DNA from: Actinomycetota bacterium
GTDB taxonomy: Bacteria; Armatimonadota; SYMT01
Direction of reading: 5' to 3'
Assembly (NCBI GenBank): GCA_005805375.1
Contig: SYMT01000193.1
Coordinates: forward strand, 1 to 37,104
DNA length: 37,104 nucleotides
Positions 8,288 to 33,808 of the stretch are shown piece by piece. A model generated the notes under the pieces. That model was not told the DNA's origin and made no database searches. It saw only the letters and a list, made by a program, of their open reading frames with translations. The position numbers and the translations under genes are program-made. Positions within the stretch are counted from its first letter, which is position 1, and each line of letters begins with the position of its first letter.

Positions 8288-8797
8288 GTGTCGAGGCCCA
8301 GAGCGCGCGTCAGAGATCTACTCGTACAGGCGTTGGAAGACGAGACGCTTGTCTATGACCAGCGGAGCCAGAAAGTCCACTGTCTGAACCGCATTGCCTC
8401 GGGGGTGTGGTCGGCGTGCGACGGAAGCCGCACGGAAGCTGAGATCACATCGGCGGCCTGTCGAGAGGTGGAACAGCCCTATCGGGAACTGGTGGGCCGC
8501 GAGATCATCGCGCGCCTTGCGCGCGCTGGGCTCCTGGATCCGGACCCGGCCGAGAGACCGAATCGCCCGACACGCCGGTCCGCATTGCGTCATCTGCGAA
8601 GCGCCGCCCTGATCTCTGCGGCGGTGACCACGGTGCTGGCTCCGCTGCCGGCGGCGGCGGGCACCTGCATGCCTCGATCGCGGTGCGGTTTGGGCACGGT
8701 CGGATATTGCTGCGTCAACTTCCTTGGCACGGCGCGGTCCTGCAGTTGCAGCGGATCGTTGTGCGGCTGCTTTGGATCCGCGTGTACCTGCACGTGA
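8288..8797 (+). CDS. PqqD-like (RRE-type) domain fused to an internal signal-like/TM segment and a Cys-rich C-terminal peptide
   Basis: GTG 8288 after a purine-rich gggag. VSRPRARVRDLLVQALEDETLVYDQRSQKVHCLNRIASGVWSACDGSRTEAEITSAAC... resembles PqqD domains (LVYD..., hxLN...vW..cDG..t..ei). It then reads TRRSALRHLRSAALISAAVTTVLAPLPAAAG, followed by a 43-aa tail with 10 Cys. Confidence 0.8.
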   Translation: MSRPRARVRDLLVQALEDETLVYDQRSQKVHCLNRIASGVWSACDGSRTEAEITSAACREVEQPYRELVGREIIARLARAGLLDPDPAERPNRPTRRSALRHLRSAALISAAVTTVLAPLPAAAGTCMPRSRCGLGTVGYCCVNFLGTARSCSCSGSLCGCFGSACTCT

Positions 8798-8918: not shown

Positions 8919-10721
8919 CTACTCGGCAGCGGCGGCGCCGTCCGGTTCACGTGGGTCCGTCACGCCGTTGCGCTCTCCGGAACCGGGCTCCACGAGGATT
9001 GCCATCACGCTGCCCTGTGATGGGACAAACCGGAGTTGGTGCCCCTTCTCACGCAGCAGGCGGAGTGTGTCGGTTGAGGTGGCATCGCGCTCCAATACCA
9101 GTTCGTTCGGCAGCCACTGGTGGTGGATGCGCCCGCGGGCCACCGCCCGGCCCAGATCCATGTCGAACTCAACGACGTTGAGCAGCACCTGAAGCACGGT
9201 GTTGATGATCGTGCGGCCCCCGGGTGAACCGAGCACCAGGTACGGTTCTCCATCCTTCGCGACGATGGTCGGCGTCATGCTCGACAGCATGCGTTTGCCG
9301 GGGGCGGCGAGATTGGGCGGCGTGCCGATCAACCCGGTGCGATCGGTGCGGCCCGGTTCTCCGTTGAAGTCTCCCATCTCGTTGTTGTAGAGGAAGCCGA
9401 GGCCGTCGGCGACAATGCGGGAACCGTAGCCGGCTTCCAGCGTGTAGGTCACGGACACGGCGTTTCCTGCAGCATCCACCACCGAGTAGTGTGTGGTCTC
9501 CGGGCTCTCGTAATCGTCAGTGAAGGCTGCCGGGTCGCTCACGGAGAGCCAGTCAGGCCGGATGGAACGGCGGAGACGCGCGGCGCGGTCGGGCGAGAGC
9601 AGCAGCGAGACGGGCAGGCCGGGGTTGGAGTCGGGGTCTCCGAGGTGCCGCGCCCGATCGGCATAGGCCCGCCGCATCGTTTCTGCCAGCAAGTGCAGGT
9701 AAGCGGCGGAATTGTGCCCGAGGTCTCGGAGGGAGTCGCCCTGAAGGATGTTGAGCATCTCGATCAGCCCGATGCCTCCGGAACTCGGCGGAGGCATGGA
9801 AACGATCTCACACCCACGAAAGGCCCCGCGAATCGGCGCTCGCTCCTTCGCCTGGTAATCCGCCAGGTCAGCTTCGGTGATGAGCCCGCCGTGCCGGCGC
9901 ATGTCCGCCGCCAGGAGACGCGCGAGCGCGCCCCGATAGAATGCCTCGCGACCGCCTCGCTGGAGTGTGCGGAGGGTGCGCGCCAGGTCGGGCTGGCGCC
10001 AGACGTCCCCGGCCTCCAATGTCGTGCCGTCCGGCTTCAGGAACACCCGCGCGGATGATGGATAACGCCGCCAGTCCGTCTGGCGGGCCGCGAAACTGCG
10101 GGCCAGGGCCCGGCTGAGCGGGAAGCCTTCCGCTGCAAGACGTTCCGCGGGCTCACACAATTCTCTCCACGAGCGCGTGCCGTACCGCTCCCGGGCCAGA
10201 TCGAACCCCGCAACGGTGCCGGGCACCCCCACAGCGCGATAGCCCTCGTGGTGCAGGTCCCGCTGGTACCGGCCGTGCGGATCCAGAAACATCCCCGGAT
10301 GCGCGCCCCGGGGCGCGATCTCGCGAAAGTCGAGTGCCGTGGAACGTCCCCCCTTGAGCCGGATGAGCATGAAGCCGCCCCCGCCGAGGTTTCCCGCTGC
10401 CGGATGCACCACCGCGAGCGCCAACCCGGTCGCAATCGCCGCGTCCACCGCGTTCCCACCGCGCCGGAGCAGATCGGCGCCGGCTGTTGAGGCGAGTCCG
10501 TGCGCGCTAACGACCACTCCGCGCCGCGAGTACGCGGGGGCGCTGTCGGCCGGCGCCGGGGGGTCCAGGAGTGCCGTCCACGCCGCGACCGCGCAGGCGG
10601 CGGCGACTCCGCACGCCGCGCTCCGGGCGTAACTCTGCTGAATCCCGGGTCGGCGCCGGGCCAAGCCGGTCGCGGATGCGCCGGCGCCTGTCGGTGCCGC
10701 CGCTCGCCGCAGGGAGAGCAT
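8919..10721 (-). CDS. ggt: Gamma-glutamyltransferase (GGT family)
   Basis: GVVVSAHGLASTAGADLLRRGGNAVDAAIATGLALAVVHPAAGNLGGGGFMLIRL...ETTHYSVVDAAGNAVSVTYTLEAGYGSRIVADGLGFLYNNEMGDF...GKRMLSSMTPTIV...GSPGGRTIINTVLQVLLNV. It contains the catalytic Thr in THYSVVD. Start taken at ATG 10721; the ORF is open upstream to 11183. Confidence 0.93.
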   Translation of the reverse strand: MLSLRRAAAPTGAGASATGLARRRPGIQQSYARSAACGVAAACAVAAWTALLDPPAPADSAPAYSRRGVVVSAHGLASTAGADLLRRGGNAVDAAIATGLALAVVHPAAGNLGGGGFMLIRLKGGRSTALDFREIAPRGAHPGMFLDPHGRYQRDLHHEGYRAVGVPGTVAGFDLARERYGTRSWRELCEPAERLAAEGFPLSRALARSFAARQTDWRRYPSSARVFLKPDGTTLEAGDVWRQPDLARTLRTLQRGGREAFYRGALARLLAADMRRHGGLITEADLADYQAKERAPIRGAFRGCEIVSMPPPSSGGIGLIEMLNILQGDSLRDLGHNSAAYLHLLAETMRRAYADRARHLGDPDSNPGLPVSLLLSPDRAARLRRSIRPDWLSVSDPAAFTDDYESPETTHYSVVDAAGNAVSVTYTLEAGYGSRIVADGLGFLYNNEMGDFNGEPGRTDRTGLIGTPPNLAAPGKRMLSSMTPTIVAKDGEPYLVLGSPGGRTIINTVLQVLLNVVEFDMDLGRAVARGRIHHQWLPNELVLERDATSTDTLRLLREKGHQLRFVPSQGSVMAILVEPGSGERNGVTDPREPDGAAAAE

Positions 10722-11425
10722 TCCGGGAGCCGCGAGTCGCACCGTATGCGTTCGGTCGCCTGCGAGGGTCGGCTGGACCTGCCCGTGGGCTGCCGGTTCA
10801 TCCGAGGGCGGACGCCGGGACGCCGTCACTTCCGGCGCTCCGTCCCAGATTCGGCCCCGGACCTCTCGTGGAGAAGCACCCGCCGGCCTGCGATCGGTCC
10901 GGGCTCCGAACCGCATGTGGGTCCAATTGTGGTGCGTTGTTCCCGCCGTTGTGCGCGCAGAGTTTGCGCCCGGATGTCTCGTCTCAATACGATCTCCCCT
11001 CGTGCATGCCGGCAGGACGGATCGGGGGCTCAGTGACGTACTCCCGGCGCAGTTCCGCAGTCGCGCGGGCCCGTGCGCTCCGGGGGGGCTGATCGTTCGC
11101 CGCACCAGGCGCGCGCTTCGTCGCTCAGTTTGCGGTCCGCTCGCACCGTTCCTGCCGGGTTTAGTCGGCGTTTGCCGGCACAACGGAGACCTCGGGCCGC
11201 CCGACCGTGGTGCGGTTCAGCCAACCGCGGGGATGGCCGTCGGGTTTTCCGGATTTCCAGGCTGCCGGCGGGTGTATCCCTGATCACCCGTGCCGGCTTG
11301 CTTTCCGGCAGGGAGGGCAACCCCGAAGGGTACTCCGCAACACGTGGAGGGAGGCGAAATCGCGAACGGAGGGGAACTGCAACCAGGTACCGGCAGGAGA
11401 ACAGTTCAGGGATGAGGGCGGAAGG

Positions 11426-14287
11426 ATGAGCAACGGTTTGAGGACGCCGCGAGATCTCGGCAGGTCGCCCCACACTCCTTCGGGGCACTTCCCGGAGGGG
11501 CAGCACTGCGTCGCCCCTCATGGTCGCGAAGCCTGCGAAGCTGCACCGGTCCCGCCCGCCCTCGCGCGCCCTGCACCGCGCACCGGTCGTGTCTGGGTGC
11601 TGGTCGTGGTGCTCGCCTTCGTTCTCGCCGGGGGCACGCGGGCGCGCGGCGCCGGGGAGTCGCCCCAACTGGGCGCCGGTGTGGTGCGCACCGTGCTCTC
11701 GAACGGTCTGACTCTGCTGGTCAAGCCTACCCGGCACGCGCCGGTCGCGGCGGTGGTCACCTGGGTGAAGGCGGGCTATTTCGACGAGCCGGATCAGGTC
11801 GCCGGTATGGCGCATCTGTTTGAGCACATGTTTTTCAACGGCAGTAAGAAGTACCCGACTGCGCAGGCGATCCAGATTGCTATCCGGGGGATCGGCGGAC
11901 TCACGAATGCGGGGACGATTTATGACCACACGACCTATTATGTGATGGTGCCGAATCATGCGGTTTCCACCGCGATGGAGATTCAGGCAGACGCAGTCGC
12001 GAACCCGCTCTTCGACGAACGCGAACTGAAGCGCGAGGCAGAGGTCGTGATTGAGGAGTCGAACCGCAAGTATGACAACGCGCCGGCGCTGGCGGTGGAG
12101 AAGATGATCGAGACGGCGTTTCAGCGACATCGGGTGCGCCGCTGGCGGATTGGGTCCAACGAGGTCCTGCGCGGCATTCGCCGTGACGATCTGATGCAGT
12201 TCTTCGAGACGCTTTATCGCCCGGAGAATATCGTGGTCAGCGTGGCCGGGGACGTGGATCCGGCGGCGGTGCGAGCCACCGCCGAACGCACGTACGGCGT
12301 CATTCCGCGTGGCACGCCGAAGCGCGATGTGGGGCCGAAGGAACCGCCACAGGAGGCTCTGCGCTTCGCTACCATGCGGGGTGACATCCAGCAGGCGTAC
12401 GTGACGTTGGGTTACCCCACCTGTCCGCCGGATCATACAGACCAGGCGGCGCTGGACGTGATCCAGAGCATTCTCTCCGTGGGCAGGAGTACGCGATTCA
12501 GCCGGGGCCTGATCCGGCCGGGGATTGCCGTCAGCGCCGATGGGAGCAACGTGGCGTATGGTGATATGGGTGTGTTTACGTTTCAGACGCGGCTCGACGC
12601 GGAGCGGGTCCCCGAGGCGGAAGAGCGGATCGTGCAGGAACTGGAGCGCCTGAAGCGGTGGCCCGTCACCCCGTTCGAGCTGGAACGAGCCCGCACCCAG
12701 GTCGCGACCCTTCGCAGTCTTCAGCAAGAGGACGTGCTGAATCAGGCGCAGACTCTGGCGGAGTATGAGGCGCGAGGGTCGTTCGCGGAAGCGGATCGTT
12801 ACTACCGCAAGATCCTGGCCGTAACCGCCGATGACGTGATGGGGGTCGCCCGGAAGTACTTCCCGTTGACCCACGCCACCGTACATCGGTATCTTCCGCG
12901 CACTTCCACGCTGCCCGACACGCAGGCGGAGGAACTTGCCGCCCGGCTGCAGCGTGCGGCCGGTGCGGTGACCGCGCCCGATGCCCCGGCGTCGCTGCCC
13001 CCACTTCCCGAGGGTGCTCCGCTGGAAGGAGGCGAGGGAGATGCACCCCGCAAGAGCATCACCCTCGCTAATGGTGTGCGGGCGTTGATCCTGGAGCGGC
13101 ATACGGTGCCGACCGCGGCGGTGGCGTTCGCGTTTTCCGGCGGCAAGTCCCGCGAGGCCGCCGATCAGGCAGGCATCACGCAGTTGCTGTTCTCCACACT
13201 CGGGAAGGGAACGCCGGCCCGGGACGCTGAAGCTCTCGACCGTACGCTGGACTCCCTCGGCACCACCCTGGAGAGCGTCGTGGCGGACGATTTCTCGATG
13301 CTGTCTGCCACCGTGTTGAGCCGCAATCTCGGCCCGCTCCTGGGGTTGCTGGCCGATGTGATCCAGCGCCCGACCTTCCCGGAGCCCGAAGTGACTCGTG
13401 CCGCGCAACTGCAACTGGCTGCGGCGCGCATTGCGAGAGATGACGCGATCAACTACCCGGTCCAGTTGGTGACCCGCGCCCTCTACGGGGAGCACCCCTA
13501 TTCGTGGCGGCCGTTCGGAAGGGAAGAAACGCTGTCCAGGCTCAACCGGGCGGCGGTACTGGAGTGGTCAGGGAAAGTCGTGCGCCCGGAGGGTCTCTGG
13601 ATTCTCATCTCCGGGACCGTGAGTGCCGGTGCAGTCGAGGCGGCGCTCGGGCGTCTGTTTGGGACGTGGCGGGTGGAGGGGGCGGCAGGAGGCGTCGCCG
13701 CGGCGGCGACGGCCCGGGCGCTGGAACCCGACCGGCCCCTGGAAACGGTCGAGCAGCGGTCACGAAGGCAGACGGCGTTTGCGATGGCATTCCCTACCGT
13801 GCCGTTCGGTCACGCCGACCAGCCGGTGCTGGATGTGATCCAGGGGCTCACCGGCGGATTGGCCGGGCGTCTCGGCGCCGAACTACGCGGACGCCAGGGT
13901 CTGGCCTACGTCACCACGAGTTTCCACCGGCCGCTGGCGAAGGGCGGTCTCTTTATGGGCTACCTGGCGGGTGATCCGAGCAAGGAGGATGCAGCCCGGC
14001 GTGGTATGGCGGCCGAGTTCCAGCGCCTGGCACGGGAGCCGGTCAGCGATTTCGAACTTCGGCTGGTAAAAGACAGTGTCACCGGATCCGCTCCGATCCG
14101 CCTCCAAAGCAATGCGGCGCGTGTTGCCGATCTGGTCCGGGGGGTCCTCCTGGCGGGAGACCCGGATTACACGACGCGATCGCTGGAGCGGATGCAGCGC
14201 ATCACCGCCGACGACATCCGGCGGGTCGCGGCGGCGTACTTCTCACGCGGGCATGCGATCGGCGTCCTGCGCGGGTCCGGAATGTAG
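11426..14287 (+). CDS. M16 family peptidase (two M16 halves, pitrilysin/PqqL-like)
   Basis: VVRTVLSNGLTLLVKPTRHAPVAAVVTWVKAGYFDEPDQVAGMAHLFEHMFFNGSKKYPTAQ gives the active HxxEH motif. The second half (KSITLANGVRALILERHTVPTAAVAFAFSGGKSREAADQAGITQLLFSTLGKGT) lacks HxxEH. Start inferred at ATG 11426. Confidence 0.92.
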   Translation: MSNGLRTPRDLGRSPHTPSGHFPEGQHCVAPHGREACEAAPVPPALARPAPRTGRVWVLVVVLAFVLAGGTRARGAGESPQLGAGVVRTVLSNGLTLLVKPTRHAPVAAVVTWVKAGYFDEPDQVAGMAHLFEHMFFNGSKKYPTAQAIQIAIRGIGGLTNAGTIYDHTTYYVMVPNHAVSTAMEIQADAVANPLFDERELKREAEVVIEESNRKYDNAPALAVEKMIETAFQRHRVRRWRIGSNEVLRGIRRDDLMQFFETLYRPENIVVSVAGDVDPAAVRATAERTYGVIPRGTPKRDVGPKEPPQEALRFATMRGDIQQAYVTLGYPTCPPDHTDQAALDVIQSILSVGRSTRFSRGLIRPGIAVSADGSNVAYGDMGVFTFQTRLDAERVPEAEERIVQELERLKRWPVTPFELERARTQVATLRSLQQEDVLNQAQTLAEYEARGSFAEADRYYRKILAVTADDVMGVARKYFPLTHATVHRYLPRTSTLPDTQAEELAARLQRAAGAVTAPDAPASLPPLPEGAPLEGGEGDAPRKSITLANGVRALILERHTVPTAAVAFAFSGGKSREAADQAGITQLLFSTLGKGTPARDAEALDRTLDSLGTTLESVVADDFSMLSATVLSRNLGPLLGLLADVIQRPTFPEPEVTRAAQLQLAAARIARDDAINYPVQLVTRALYGEHPYSWRPFGREETLSRLNRAAVLEWSGKVVRPEGLWILISGTVSAGAVEAALGRLFGTWRVEGAAGGVAAAATARALEPDRPLETVEQRSRRQTAFAMAFPTVPFGHADQPVLDVIQGLTGGLAGRLGAELRGRQGLAYVTTSFHRPLAKGGLFMGYLAGDPSKEDAARRGMAAEFQRLAREPVSDFELRLVKDSVTGSAPIRLQSNAARVADLVRGVLLAGDPDYTTRSLERMQRITADDIRRVAAAYFSRGHAIGVLRGSGM

Positions 14288-31576: not shown

Positions 31577-32263
31577 TCAGATTTCTGACCGGAGCGCGGC
31601 GGCCGCCGGCAGCTTGGCTGCCTTCATGGCGGGCATCACTGTGGCCAGCACAGTGAGAATCACCCCTGCCGCCACCGAAATCCCCAGGCTCTGGATCGCT
31701 CGTAGTGGAGGCAGGTATTCGAGGGCTTCCGGCCCGAGCTGGAAGATTTTCATCAACACCCCGCCGAGGAACCCTACGGCGAACCCAATGAAGGACGCAA
31801 TGACCCCGAGAAACCCGGCCTCGAGCAGAAACAACGTCACGATGAAGCTGTCGAGCGCTCCGAGGCACTTCATGGTGCCGATCTCTTTGAACCGTTCGGT
31901 CACGGACATGAACATCGAGTTGGCGATGCCCACGGTGCAGACGATCAGGGACATGGAGACGAGCCAGTTCTGACGAGTTTTCGCCTCTTCCTTCTGGATC
32001 TGAGCCTGCTGCGCCGAGAGGCCCTGCGCGTTCTTTACCGGCGTGTTCTCCTCAATGATCGACTGGCCGAACGTTGCGCCCAGGAACGCGATGCCCAGCA
32101 TTACACCGGCGGCGGTGATCATCGAGCGCCAGAAACGGACCCGGATGTTCTGCATCGCAATCGAAAATGCCTTCGCCAGGGGCAATTGCACCTGACGCTG
32201 CCCCGCACCGCCAATCAGGCGACCGGGCTGGTTGGGCGTCTGCGCTGATTCCATCTCCGTCAT
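31577..32263 (-). CDS. Short FtsX/MacB-like ABC permease
   Basis: MTEMESAQ...LPLAKAFSIAMQNIRVRFWRSMITAAGVMLGIAFLGATFG...WLVSMSLIVCTVGIANSMFMSVTERFKEIGTMKCLGALDSFIVTLFLLEAGFLGVIASFIGFAVGFLGG...LGISVAAGVILTVLATVMPAMKAAKLPAAAALRSEI. ATGA overlap with the upstream PqqD-like gene. Confidence 0.92.
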   Translation of the reverse strand: MTEMESAQTPNQPGRLIGGAGQRQVQLPLAKAFSIAMQNIRVRFWRSMITAAGVMLGIAFLGATFGQSIIEENTPVKNAQGLSAQQAQIQKEEAKTRQNWLVSMSLIVCTVGIANSMFMSVTERFKEIGTMKCLGALDSFIVTLFLLEAGFLGVIASFIGFAVGFLGGVLMKIFQLGPEALEYLPPLRAIQSLGISVAAGVILTVLATVMPAMKAAKLPAAAALRSEI

Positions 32264-32751
32264 TTCCTTCCCCCGGCCGCCTCGCCCGCCGTCTCCAGGC
32301 GCAATCCGATGAACCCCCGCCGTGCCAGTGTGCGCAGATACGTGGTCAACGACACCTCCACCTCCCGCCGTTCCAGTTTGTGTGTCCTTGCCAGGGACCG
32401 GATCAACTCGTCCACCGTCGTCGCCCCGTCGCACATCGTCCACACCTCCGTGCCCAGTTCGTCCAGCACGACGACCTTGTGCGTCGGCGCCTCGAAGATC
32501 CGCTGCAGGATCTTTCCCAGACGGTCCTGACGGCGGGGCACCCGGAGTACGGCCACGGGAGTGTCGGTCTTTTGCCCGTCTTCGGGGCCTTTCATTTCCC
32601 ATTCGATGCGCTCGTTGCGAAAGGGCAGGGCTTGCAAGACCTCCGCCCGAGTAATCCGTGCTGCGGCTCGCCTCGGCCCCACGACCGGGAGCCGGTCAAG
32701 CCAGTTGCCTGCTCGCTGCCGCCAGGCCGGAAGAGGACGCCGCTGCTCCAT
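32260..32751 (-). CDS. PqqD family protein
   Basis: MEQRRPLPAWRQRAGNWLDRLPVVGPRRAA...LGKILQRIFEAPTHKVVVLDELGTEVWTMCDGATTVDELIRSLARTHKLERREVEVSLTTYLRTLARRGFIGLRLE. PqqD-like hxLdelGteVWxxcDGxxtvdeli. The ORF is open to 32895; start inferred at 32751. Confidence 0.88.
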   Translation of the reverse strand: MEQRRPLPAWRQRAGNWLDRLPVVGPRRAAARITRAEVLQALPFRNERIEWEMKGPEDGQKTDTPVAVLRVPRRQDRLGKILQRIFEAPTHKVVVLDELGTEVWTMCDGATTVDELIRSLARTHKLERREVEVSLTTYLRTLARRGFIGLRLETAGEAAGGRK

Positions 32752-32827
32752 CCGGGTCCCGGTGGACCGTTCCTGTTTCGGGTTACGCTTGCCGCCTCCT
32801 GGACCGGGCACATCACTCCTCGCCGCC

Positions 32828-33808
32828 TCAGGCGTGGCACGGGACGCGCGCTGCCACACTTTCAAGCAGCGTGCTGCGCCGAGACTGCTCCACAATGAGC
32901 GCGTAGATCCGGTTTGAGGCCTCGCAGTGCCACAGATAGCCCTGCATGAAGAAACACGGCCAGGTCAGCGTGGCGGGTACGCGCGCCAGCTTGAGCAGCG
33001 CCTGCCACCACCGATCGCGCCCGACCAGCCGGAATGCCCGGTGCCCGCGCAGCACGGTCTCCTCCACGCGGTAGGCATAGCGGCTGAGCGCAGCCCGCTC
33101 CCGCGCTTCGTACCACTCGCGTACCGATCCTCCCCGCAGCGCCAGTTCGGCGAGTCCCCACCGATCCGCCTGCAGACGCGCGCCCCCTTTTCGCAATTGG
33201 AACTGCTGGCGGCCGGTCATCAGTACCTGCTTCTCCATCGTGAATCCTACCGGCGCCGATATCGTGAGGCCGTAGAGCGACCAGGTGATCCAGTCGTCCT
33301 CGCCATGTTCGCGGATGCCGGCCAGGATGCTCCGCGCGATGGACAGGTCGTCGTCCCGCTCCCCCACCACCTCGGCGATGACCAGCCGTCCGCAGTGCCC
33401 GCAATGCCAGATGCACCCCACGGCCTTCTGAGCCGCTTCCCACGTGTACGCGATCGGCGCCTGGTCGTCCGGTCGCAACCGCCCGAGTCCCGCCGGCTTG
33501 GTCCGCACGACCAGTTCCATCCTGCTGCGGCGAGCGGTCTTGCGCAGCCGGTCGAGATACCTTTCCAGCGCCTGGGGCACGTTGACGACGCCTTTGGGTT
33601 GCTCCCACTTCACCTCAAGGTGGCGCGTGTCCGGGCCGACCACCTTGACATAGCCTTGCCGTCCCTCGCCACTGACTGCGACCGGGCTCCACTCGTCCGG
33701 CGTGTGAAGCGTCAGCCCATTCCATCCTACCAGAACCGAGAGTGCCGCTGGCAGCGGCCCTTCTCCGCGGGTTCCGTCCTTCTCTGCTGTGCCTGTGGTC
33801 CTTCGCAT
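32828..33808 (-). CDS. Uncharacterized protein with CxxxCxxC motif, in the PqqD/transporter operon
   Basis: 326-aa ORF with coherent protein-like composition: ...AVGCIWHCGHCGRLVIAEVVGERDDDLSIARSIL...GYLWHCEASNRIYALIVEQS.... Packed between the PqqD-like and transporter genes. Confidence 0.8.
   Translation of the reverse strand: MRRTTGTAEKDGTRGEGPLPAALSVLVGWNGLTLHTPDEWSPVAVSGEGRQGYVKVVGPDTRHLEVKWEQPKGVVNVPQALERYLDRLRKTARRSRMELVVRTKPAGLGRLRPDDQAPIAYTWEAAQKAVGCIWHCGHCGRLVIAEVVGERDDDLSIARSILAGIREHGEDDWITWSLYGLTISAPVGFTMEKQVLMTGRQQFQLRKGGARLQADRWGLAELALRGGSVREWYEARERAALSRYAYRVEETVLRGHRAFRLVGRDRWWQALLKLARVPATLTWPCFFMQGYLWHCEASNRIYALIVEQSRRSTLLESVAARVPCHA

Follow-up and report, generated by a model that had tools for sequence, protein, structure and literature searches.

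PqqD proteins fused to a twin-arginine signal and a cysteine-rich tail: candidate peptide precursors with a built-in recognition domain in two bacterial phyla

Lasso peptides can be phosphorylated on a serine by an HPr-kinase homolog, with a B1 protein as the recognition element; in the paeninodin pathway these parts are the kinase homolog PadeK and a stand-alone PqqD-type B1 RRE, and in the pseudomycoidin pathway PsmK phosphorylates, after which PsmN attaches one or two hexoses to the phosphate (PMC8498205, PMC9266682). The proteins described here recall this arrangement through an HPr-kinase homolog, a nucleotidyltransferase (likened to PsmN by description), a PqqD-type RRE, and a small peptide. 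PqqD and an HprK-related kinase also occur together in the HPr-rel-A system (TIGR04352, kinase A; TIGR04353, PqqD family peptide chaperone), a second point of likeness. The gene from which this study starts lies in a window of 37,104 nucleotides, by which we mean the whole stretch of DNA analysed.

The window gene and its family

The initial annotation had described the open reading frame at 8288-8797 as a PqqD domain joined to an internal twin-arginine signal and a cysteine tail. This gene is real: its coordinates match, it has homologs in two phyla, and an alignment of homologs backs the start at 8288. It is composed of the following parts.

8288..8797, plus strand: whole precursor gene, 169 aa; GTG start at 8288, stop codon TGA at 8795-8797
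8342..8509, plus strand: PqqD/RRE-like domain, residues 19-74, with the family motif LVYD...HCLN...W..CDG and a PF05402 match
8573..8578, plus strand: twin arginines R96-R97 of the (S/T)RRxxhK/R motif; RR in 69/69 members
8597..8659, plus strand: hydrophobic signal core and predicted signal peptidase I site (...APLPAAA/GTC, putative cut at the slash); AP..A.A kept across the family
8660..8794, plus strand: mature peptide of 45 aa as predicted from the sequence, with 10 Cys in the framework C5C7CC9C1C4C1C4C1C

Residues 19-74 match the PF05402 PqqD model with E=3.9e-6 and 27.5 bits, above the gathering cut-off of 23.4, in agreement with the domain originally proposed. The top NCBIfam model for this domain is TIGR04353, at 25.2 bits and below its cut-off of 35, and the top PDB sequence match is the lasso RRE TbiB1 (E=0.029). 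A two-sequence AlphaFold2 model of the full-length protein was poor in this region (pLDDT ∼40); its order of elements, two strands followed by helices, is compatible with an RRE/PqqD domain.

The neighbours of the window gene are ordinary: a histone-deacetylase-like gene and genes for an FMN-binding protein, an M16 peptidase, DUF58, and BatA, with a gamma-glutamyltranspeptidase gene nearby on the opposite strand. No maturase was recognised near the gene within the 37-kb contig. The window also holds a second, different PqqD domain gene at 32260-32964 on the minus strand (E=2.9e-10), which adjoins genes for an ABC ATPase and an FtsX-like permease; further genomes of the phylum also encode PqqD proteins like this one (e.g., at L024).

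The genome of the window (G000; 7.46 Mb, 80% complete) contains five copies of the family, the four further copies lying on three other contigs and showing the same order of parts as the window copy. For genome searches we used profile A2, which represents the N-module and includes the RR segment. The phylum to which the window belongs may be Armatimonadota, judging from features of its relatives. Among its 291 genomes, 7 contained full-length members, as did ∼40 of 396 sampled genomes from the phylum of Acidobacteria MAG RYN_26, with up to five copies per genome; the second count bears out the suggestion in the initial annotation that similar architectures exist in Acidobacteria. The family set gathered in this way comprised 69 proteins from the two phyla. 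PqqD matches (E≤0.01) were obtained for 67/67 members, two repeat-tailed members having been dropped from the set, and cysteine-rich tails, whose conservation had been proposed as a check, recur in nearly all homologs. No relative was found in the viral contigs searched, and none in the 50 genomes searched from the class of Chitinophaga; the plasmids searched gave one half-length match only, on a Gemmatirosa megaplasmid whose record carries no annotation. One candidate, L040, was rejected as not being a real member.

A frameshift or overrun that joined an unrelated cysteine-rich stretch to a PqqD gene would also yield such a protein. We found no evidence supporting this explanation, and the same architecture in more than 60 genes from two phyla refutes it, leaving it a negligible probability. 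Because the four paralogs share the same order of parts and 69 members occur in two phyla, the fusion is, as judged from these homologs, a family and not a product of chance or of reading-frame overrun.

Some members and relatives carry other kinds of cargo or unusual arrangements. Two PqqD-RR proteins of one genome (G044; L048:7919-9121 and 10506-11810, minus strand) have a repeat region of 250-300 aa instead of the cysteine tail; their repeat regions end near-identically, in a way that resembles phage tail-fibre ends, and this genome is without the kinase described below. PqqD-RR proteins at L163 and L164 (G306) and at L177 (G662) carry other cargo, either TTTADPG/GGGDT repeats or a terminus rich in proline (PKPAPPKPKPKPILPFL), and in G662 a kinase homolog lies ∼400 bp downstream. 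Divergent PqqD proteins at L179 and L180 (G370 and G498) have no RR and a short two-cysteine tail (CAKYPGVSTICSTNPEQ, CALQPGVSDLCNTNPQNS), and the kinase of these genomes is on a contig other than that of the divergent gene. At L045:1534-2016 (minus strand), a full-length member adjoining a kinase gene has a tail without any cysteine (SGRSQFAQPPEMPDQGPAIGGGFAIGSSNIGR). At L119:1677-3745 (minus strand), three tandem precursors with three different cysteine frameworks form a local cargo-diversification array.

Cysteine-rich tails and the export signal

Sixty-three of the 69 members have cysteine-containing tails and make up the Cys class. The number of cysteines is even in 62 of these 63 tails (nominal binomial p=7e-18, with relatedness ignored), the most common counts being 6 (35/69) and 8 (18/69). 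Several frameworks occur, among them C6C5CC3C4C and its kin, which have textbook inhibitor-cystine-knot (ICK) spacing, as well as C1C5C5C5C4C, C5C1C11C5C4C1C11C, and that of the window protein. For the window tail, the 10 cysteines noted in the initial annotation stand, but its length is 45 aa when counted from the AxA site (GTC...) rather than the 43 given there. The regular CxC-x4-CxC-x4-CxC pattern is likewise present in the window copy but peculiar to it, and the paralogs C298 and C658a differ, with C-x5/7-C-x7-CC-x5-C-x8-C-x4-CxC.

A loose regular expression for knottins, C-x3-8-C-x3-14-CC-x1-9-C-x-C, fits 23 of the 63 Cys tails, including that of the window. Searching the PDB with a profile of 10 ICK-type tails returned 23 sequences at E≤0.1, and the top matches were animal ICK peptides (6nk9 at 2.8e-5, atracotoxin, and omega-conotoxins). 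One tail came just short of the cut-off for the Omega-toxin Pfam model (E=1.7e-4); two members match a fulvocin C-related model, and these matches were not among the ten members rescanned. The window tail itself matched no Pfam family. When it was modelled alone with single-sequence AlphaFold2, the prediction consisted entirely of beta strands (pLDDT 78), and a comparison of this model with PDB folds gave no match. The resemblance to knottins is one of framework only, is probably convergent, and carries no information on the target of these peptides.

By eye, the CxC repeats of the window copy look like metal-binding motifs, and the tail could conceivably bind metal or take part in redox or thiol chemistry rather than being disulfide-bonded. 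We regard this as very unlikely in view of the export signal in all members, the almost uniformly even cysteine counts (62/63), the ICK spacing of many tails, and their few His, Asp, and Glu residues.

In 85 close pairs, mean identity was 0.68 for the N-module vs. 0.46 for the tail, and the non-synonymous difference was 0.23 vs. 0.40 at a similar synonymous difference; the aligned tails are short in this comparison, and synonymous positions approach saturation. At the level of sequence, this pairing of a conserved N-module with a fast-changing tail is what one expects of a precursor whose leader is conserved and whose core varies. The self-carrying precursor put forward in the initial annotation gains partial support from this conserved PqqD/twin-arginine module with its fast-changing cysteine cargo, with RRE binding and cargo modification as its putative steps. 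No conserved Ser/Thr acceptor was identified in the tails.

Between the PqqD domain and the tail lies the putative Tat signal. In the window protein, TRR (residues 95-97) is followed by a hydrophobic stretch and then by PLPAAA/GTC. Across the family, the residue preceding the invariant arginines is S/T in 56 of 69 members, and the residue four positions past the second arginine is R/K in 62 of 69; the resulting motif agrees with the Tat consensus (S/T)RRxFLK apart from a looser F position, and full-length members include no KK or RK variants. The invariance of RR is partly favoured by the search, because profile A2 contains the RR segment. The TIGR01409 TAT_signal_seq model matches 11 of 67 members (best E=1.2e-4), and TIGR01409 and PF10518 match only a subset of the family (about a sixth at E≤0.05); the window's own signal gave no match to Tat models at E≤0.1. 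The (S/T)RRxxhK motif, the hydrophobic core, and the AxA site expected of a Tat signal are all present, with the window copy having H in place of K/R after TRRSAL-R. TatC is encoded in the same genome. The Tat pathway prefers folded cargo, and disulfides normally form only after export; a tail folded beforehand would fit this preference.

Partner enzymes and a proposed pathway

Candidate partners were found by clustering all predicted genes around the loci, and two of them stood out from the rest. A PF14907 NTP_transf_5 nucleotidyltransferase (match E ∼1e-26) is present in 43 of 69 loci and an HprK-type P-loop kinase in 36 of 69; both mostly flank the precursor directly and on the same strand, with the kinase upstream and the nucleotidyltransferase downstream. 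The model nearest to the kinase is TIGR04352 HprK_rel_A (E=3e-14; 52.8 bits, below the cut-off of 200). The P-loop G-K and SDE motif residues of the kinase are invariant, and the nucleotidyltransferase retains D-x-D. The most frequent neighbour families included no radical SAM or YcaO protein.

In the sampled phylum, the kinase profile found a match in 40/40 genomes with full-length members vs. 7/356 without (Fisher 5e-48, phylogeny ignored), and in the window's phylum in 5/7 family genomes vs. 1/284 others; the related genomes in these counts are not independent observations. Two family genomes have no kinase: G044, whose tails are not cysteine-rich, and G051, a close relative of the kinase-bearing G109. 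One could suppose that PqqD only assists Tat export in the cytoplasm, as a quality-control or chaperone domain, that the peptide is unmodified, and that the kinase acts elsewhere. The RR and the signal core are indeed the most constant features of the family, and in G044, where no kinase was found, the same module bears unrelated cargo (repeats and a phage-tail-like end). However, a kinase accompanies the family in 40/40 genomes of one phylum and is encoded directly upstream in many loci. Because of this kinase, a role purely in export quality control is the less likely reading, and we consider it improbable.

In the genome of the window, a kinase–nucleotidyltransferase pair lies on contig C127.

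C127:2365-3204, minus strand: kinase, overlapping the start of the nucleotidyltransferase gene
C127:1316-2368, minus strand: nucleotidyltransferase

A further nucleotidyltransferase gene lies 2 bp past the C658b precursor. The window copy is an orphan, and it could be served in trans, since the genome encodes the C127 pair. The statement in the initial annotation that no maturase is adjacent holds for the window copy but gives the wrong impression of the family, in which most members stand beside a kinase and/or a nucleotidyltransferase.

Polysaccharide genes surround several of the loci, and for this reason there is a real, if somewhat unlikely, alternative in which the exported peptide would, as a protein, anchor or prime exopolysaccharide: the enzymes would add a sugar-phosphate, the polysaccharide machinery would extend or attach the glycan, and the cysteines would merely stabilise the carrier. 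Several lineages have the gene in polysaccharide clusters, with neighbours that include Wzz (4), O-antigen ligase (3), exosortase EpsH (2), and polysaccharide export proteins (2), and a synteny block containing WecA-like and glycosyltransferase-like genes is common to 22 loci, as judged by eye from sequence clusters. The NCBI name HPr-rel-A system is also tied to polysaccharide clusters. However, the window copy and several others are located outside such clusters, the context is in part shared synteny within one lineage, and the tail is hypervariable, a property that an anchor does not require.

We give somewhat better than even credence to a different pathway, proposed from sequence features and by analogy, in which a precursor with a built-in RRE undergoes modification, passes through Tat, and is cleaved to yield a secreted disulfide-rich peptide. 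The PqqD/RRE domain would dock the kinase and the nucleotidyltransferase onto the precursor. The kinase would phosphorylate a Ser/Thr of the Ser/Thr-rich cargo, by analogy with lasso peptides, and the nucleotidyltransferase would place a sugar-phosphate or nucleotide on that residue, as in lasso peptides. The modified product would then be exported by Tat, signal peptidase I would cut after AxA and leave the PqqD part behind, and the tail would be oxidised outside the cytoplasm to a knottin-like peptide. The window copy would depend on the C127 pair in trans. The finished peptide would most likely serve as a secreted effector, for example a bacteriocin-like or surface-active peptide. If this pathway is correct, one kinase–nucleotidyltransferase set could serve many disulfide-rich cargos that evolve fast and are encoded at scattered sites in the genome, and poorly studied bacteria would contain a large, apparently undescribed source of knottin-like peptides with an easy search signature (a PqqD domain, an RR signal, and a Cys tail, in that order).

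Comparison with known systems

Many tails share their cysteine spacing with animal and plant knottins and with bacterial defensins (e.g., C6C5CC3C4C), and the ICK-type profile has the PDB matches given above. The likeness is nevertheless restricted to the framework, and the 10-Cys tail of the window matches no Pfam family or PDB fold. The family is also similar to the HPr-rel-A system but, by its model scores, is not a member of it, because both proteins fall under the respective cut-offs (25.2 vs. 35 and 52.8 vs. 200 bits); moreover, the TIGR04353 model describes a domain of 74 positions, whereas the PqqD domain of this family is fused to a Tat signal and cysteine-rich cargo. A literature search of limited coverage returned no description of the HPr-rel-A system or of the PqqD–Tat–Cys architecture.

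By sequence, the recognition domain belongs to the PqqD family, as do RREs of RiPP pathways (PF05402; RRE-Finder). RREs known so far either stand alone or are joined to enzymes, whereas the RRE of this family is fused to its own cargo, and the searched passages of the two RRE-Finder papers do not mention a fusion to Tat-exported cysteine-rich cargo. We tentatively suggest that the family may constitute a new class of ribosomal natural-product peptides in two phyla, that of phosphorylated or phosphoglycosylated knottins whose precursor has its own fused recognition domain and Tat signal. Such precursors would allow a clean test of the RRE role, with the recognition element and the substrate forming one chain.

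Of the lasso peptide machinery, the cyclase and the B2 protease were absent from the recurrent neighbour families (131 neighbour proteins; best 25 of 191 families). The family differs further from lasso peptides in having the RRE fused to the substrate, a disulfide-rich cargo, and a Tat signal. What HprK-like kinases and NTP_transf_5 enzymes do to peptides is an open point in lasso peptide work, and these precursors would allow a clean test of it as well.
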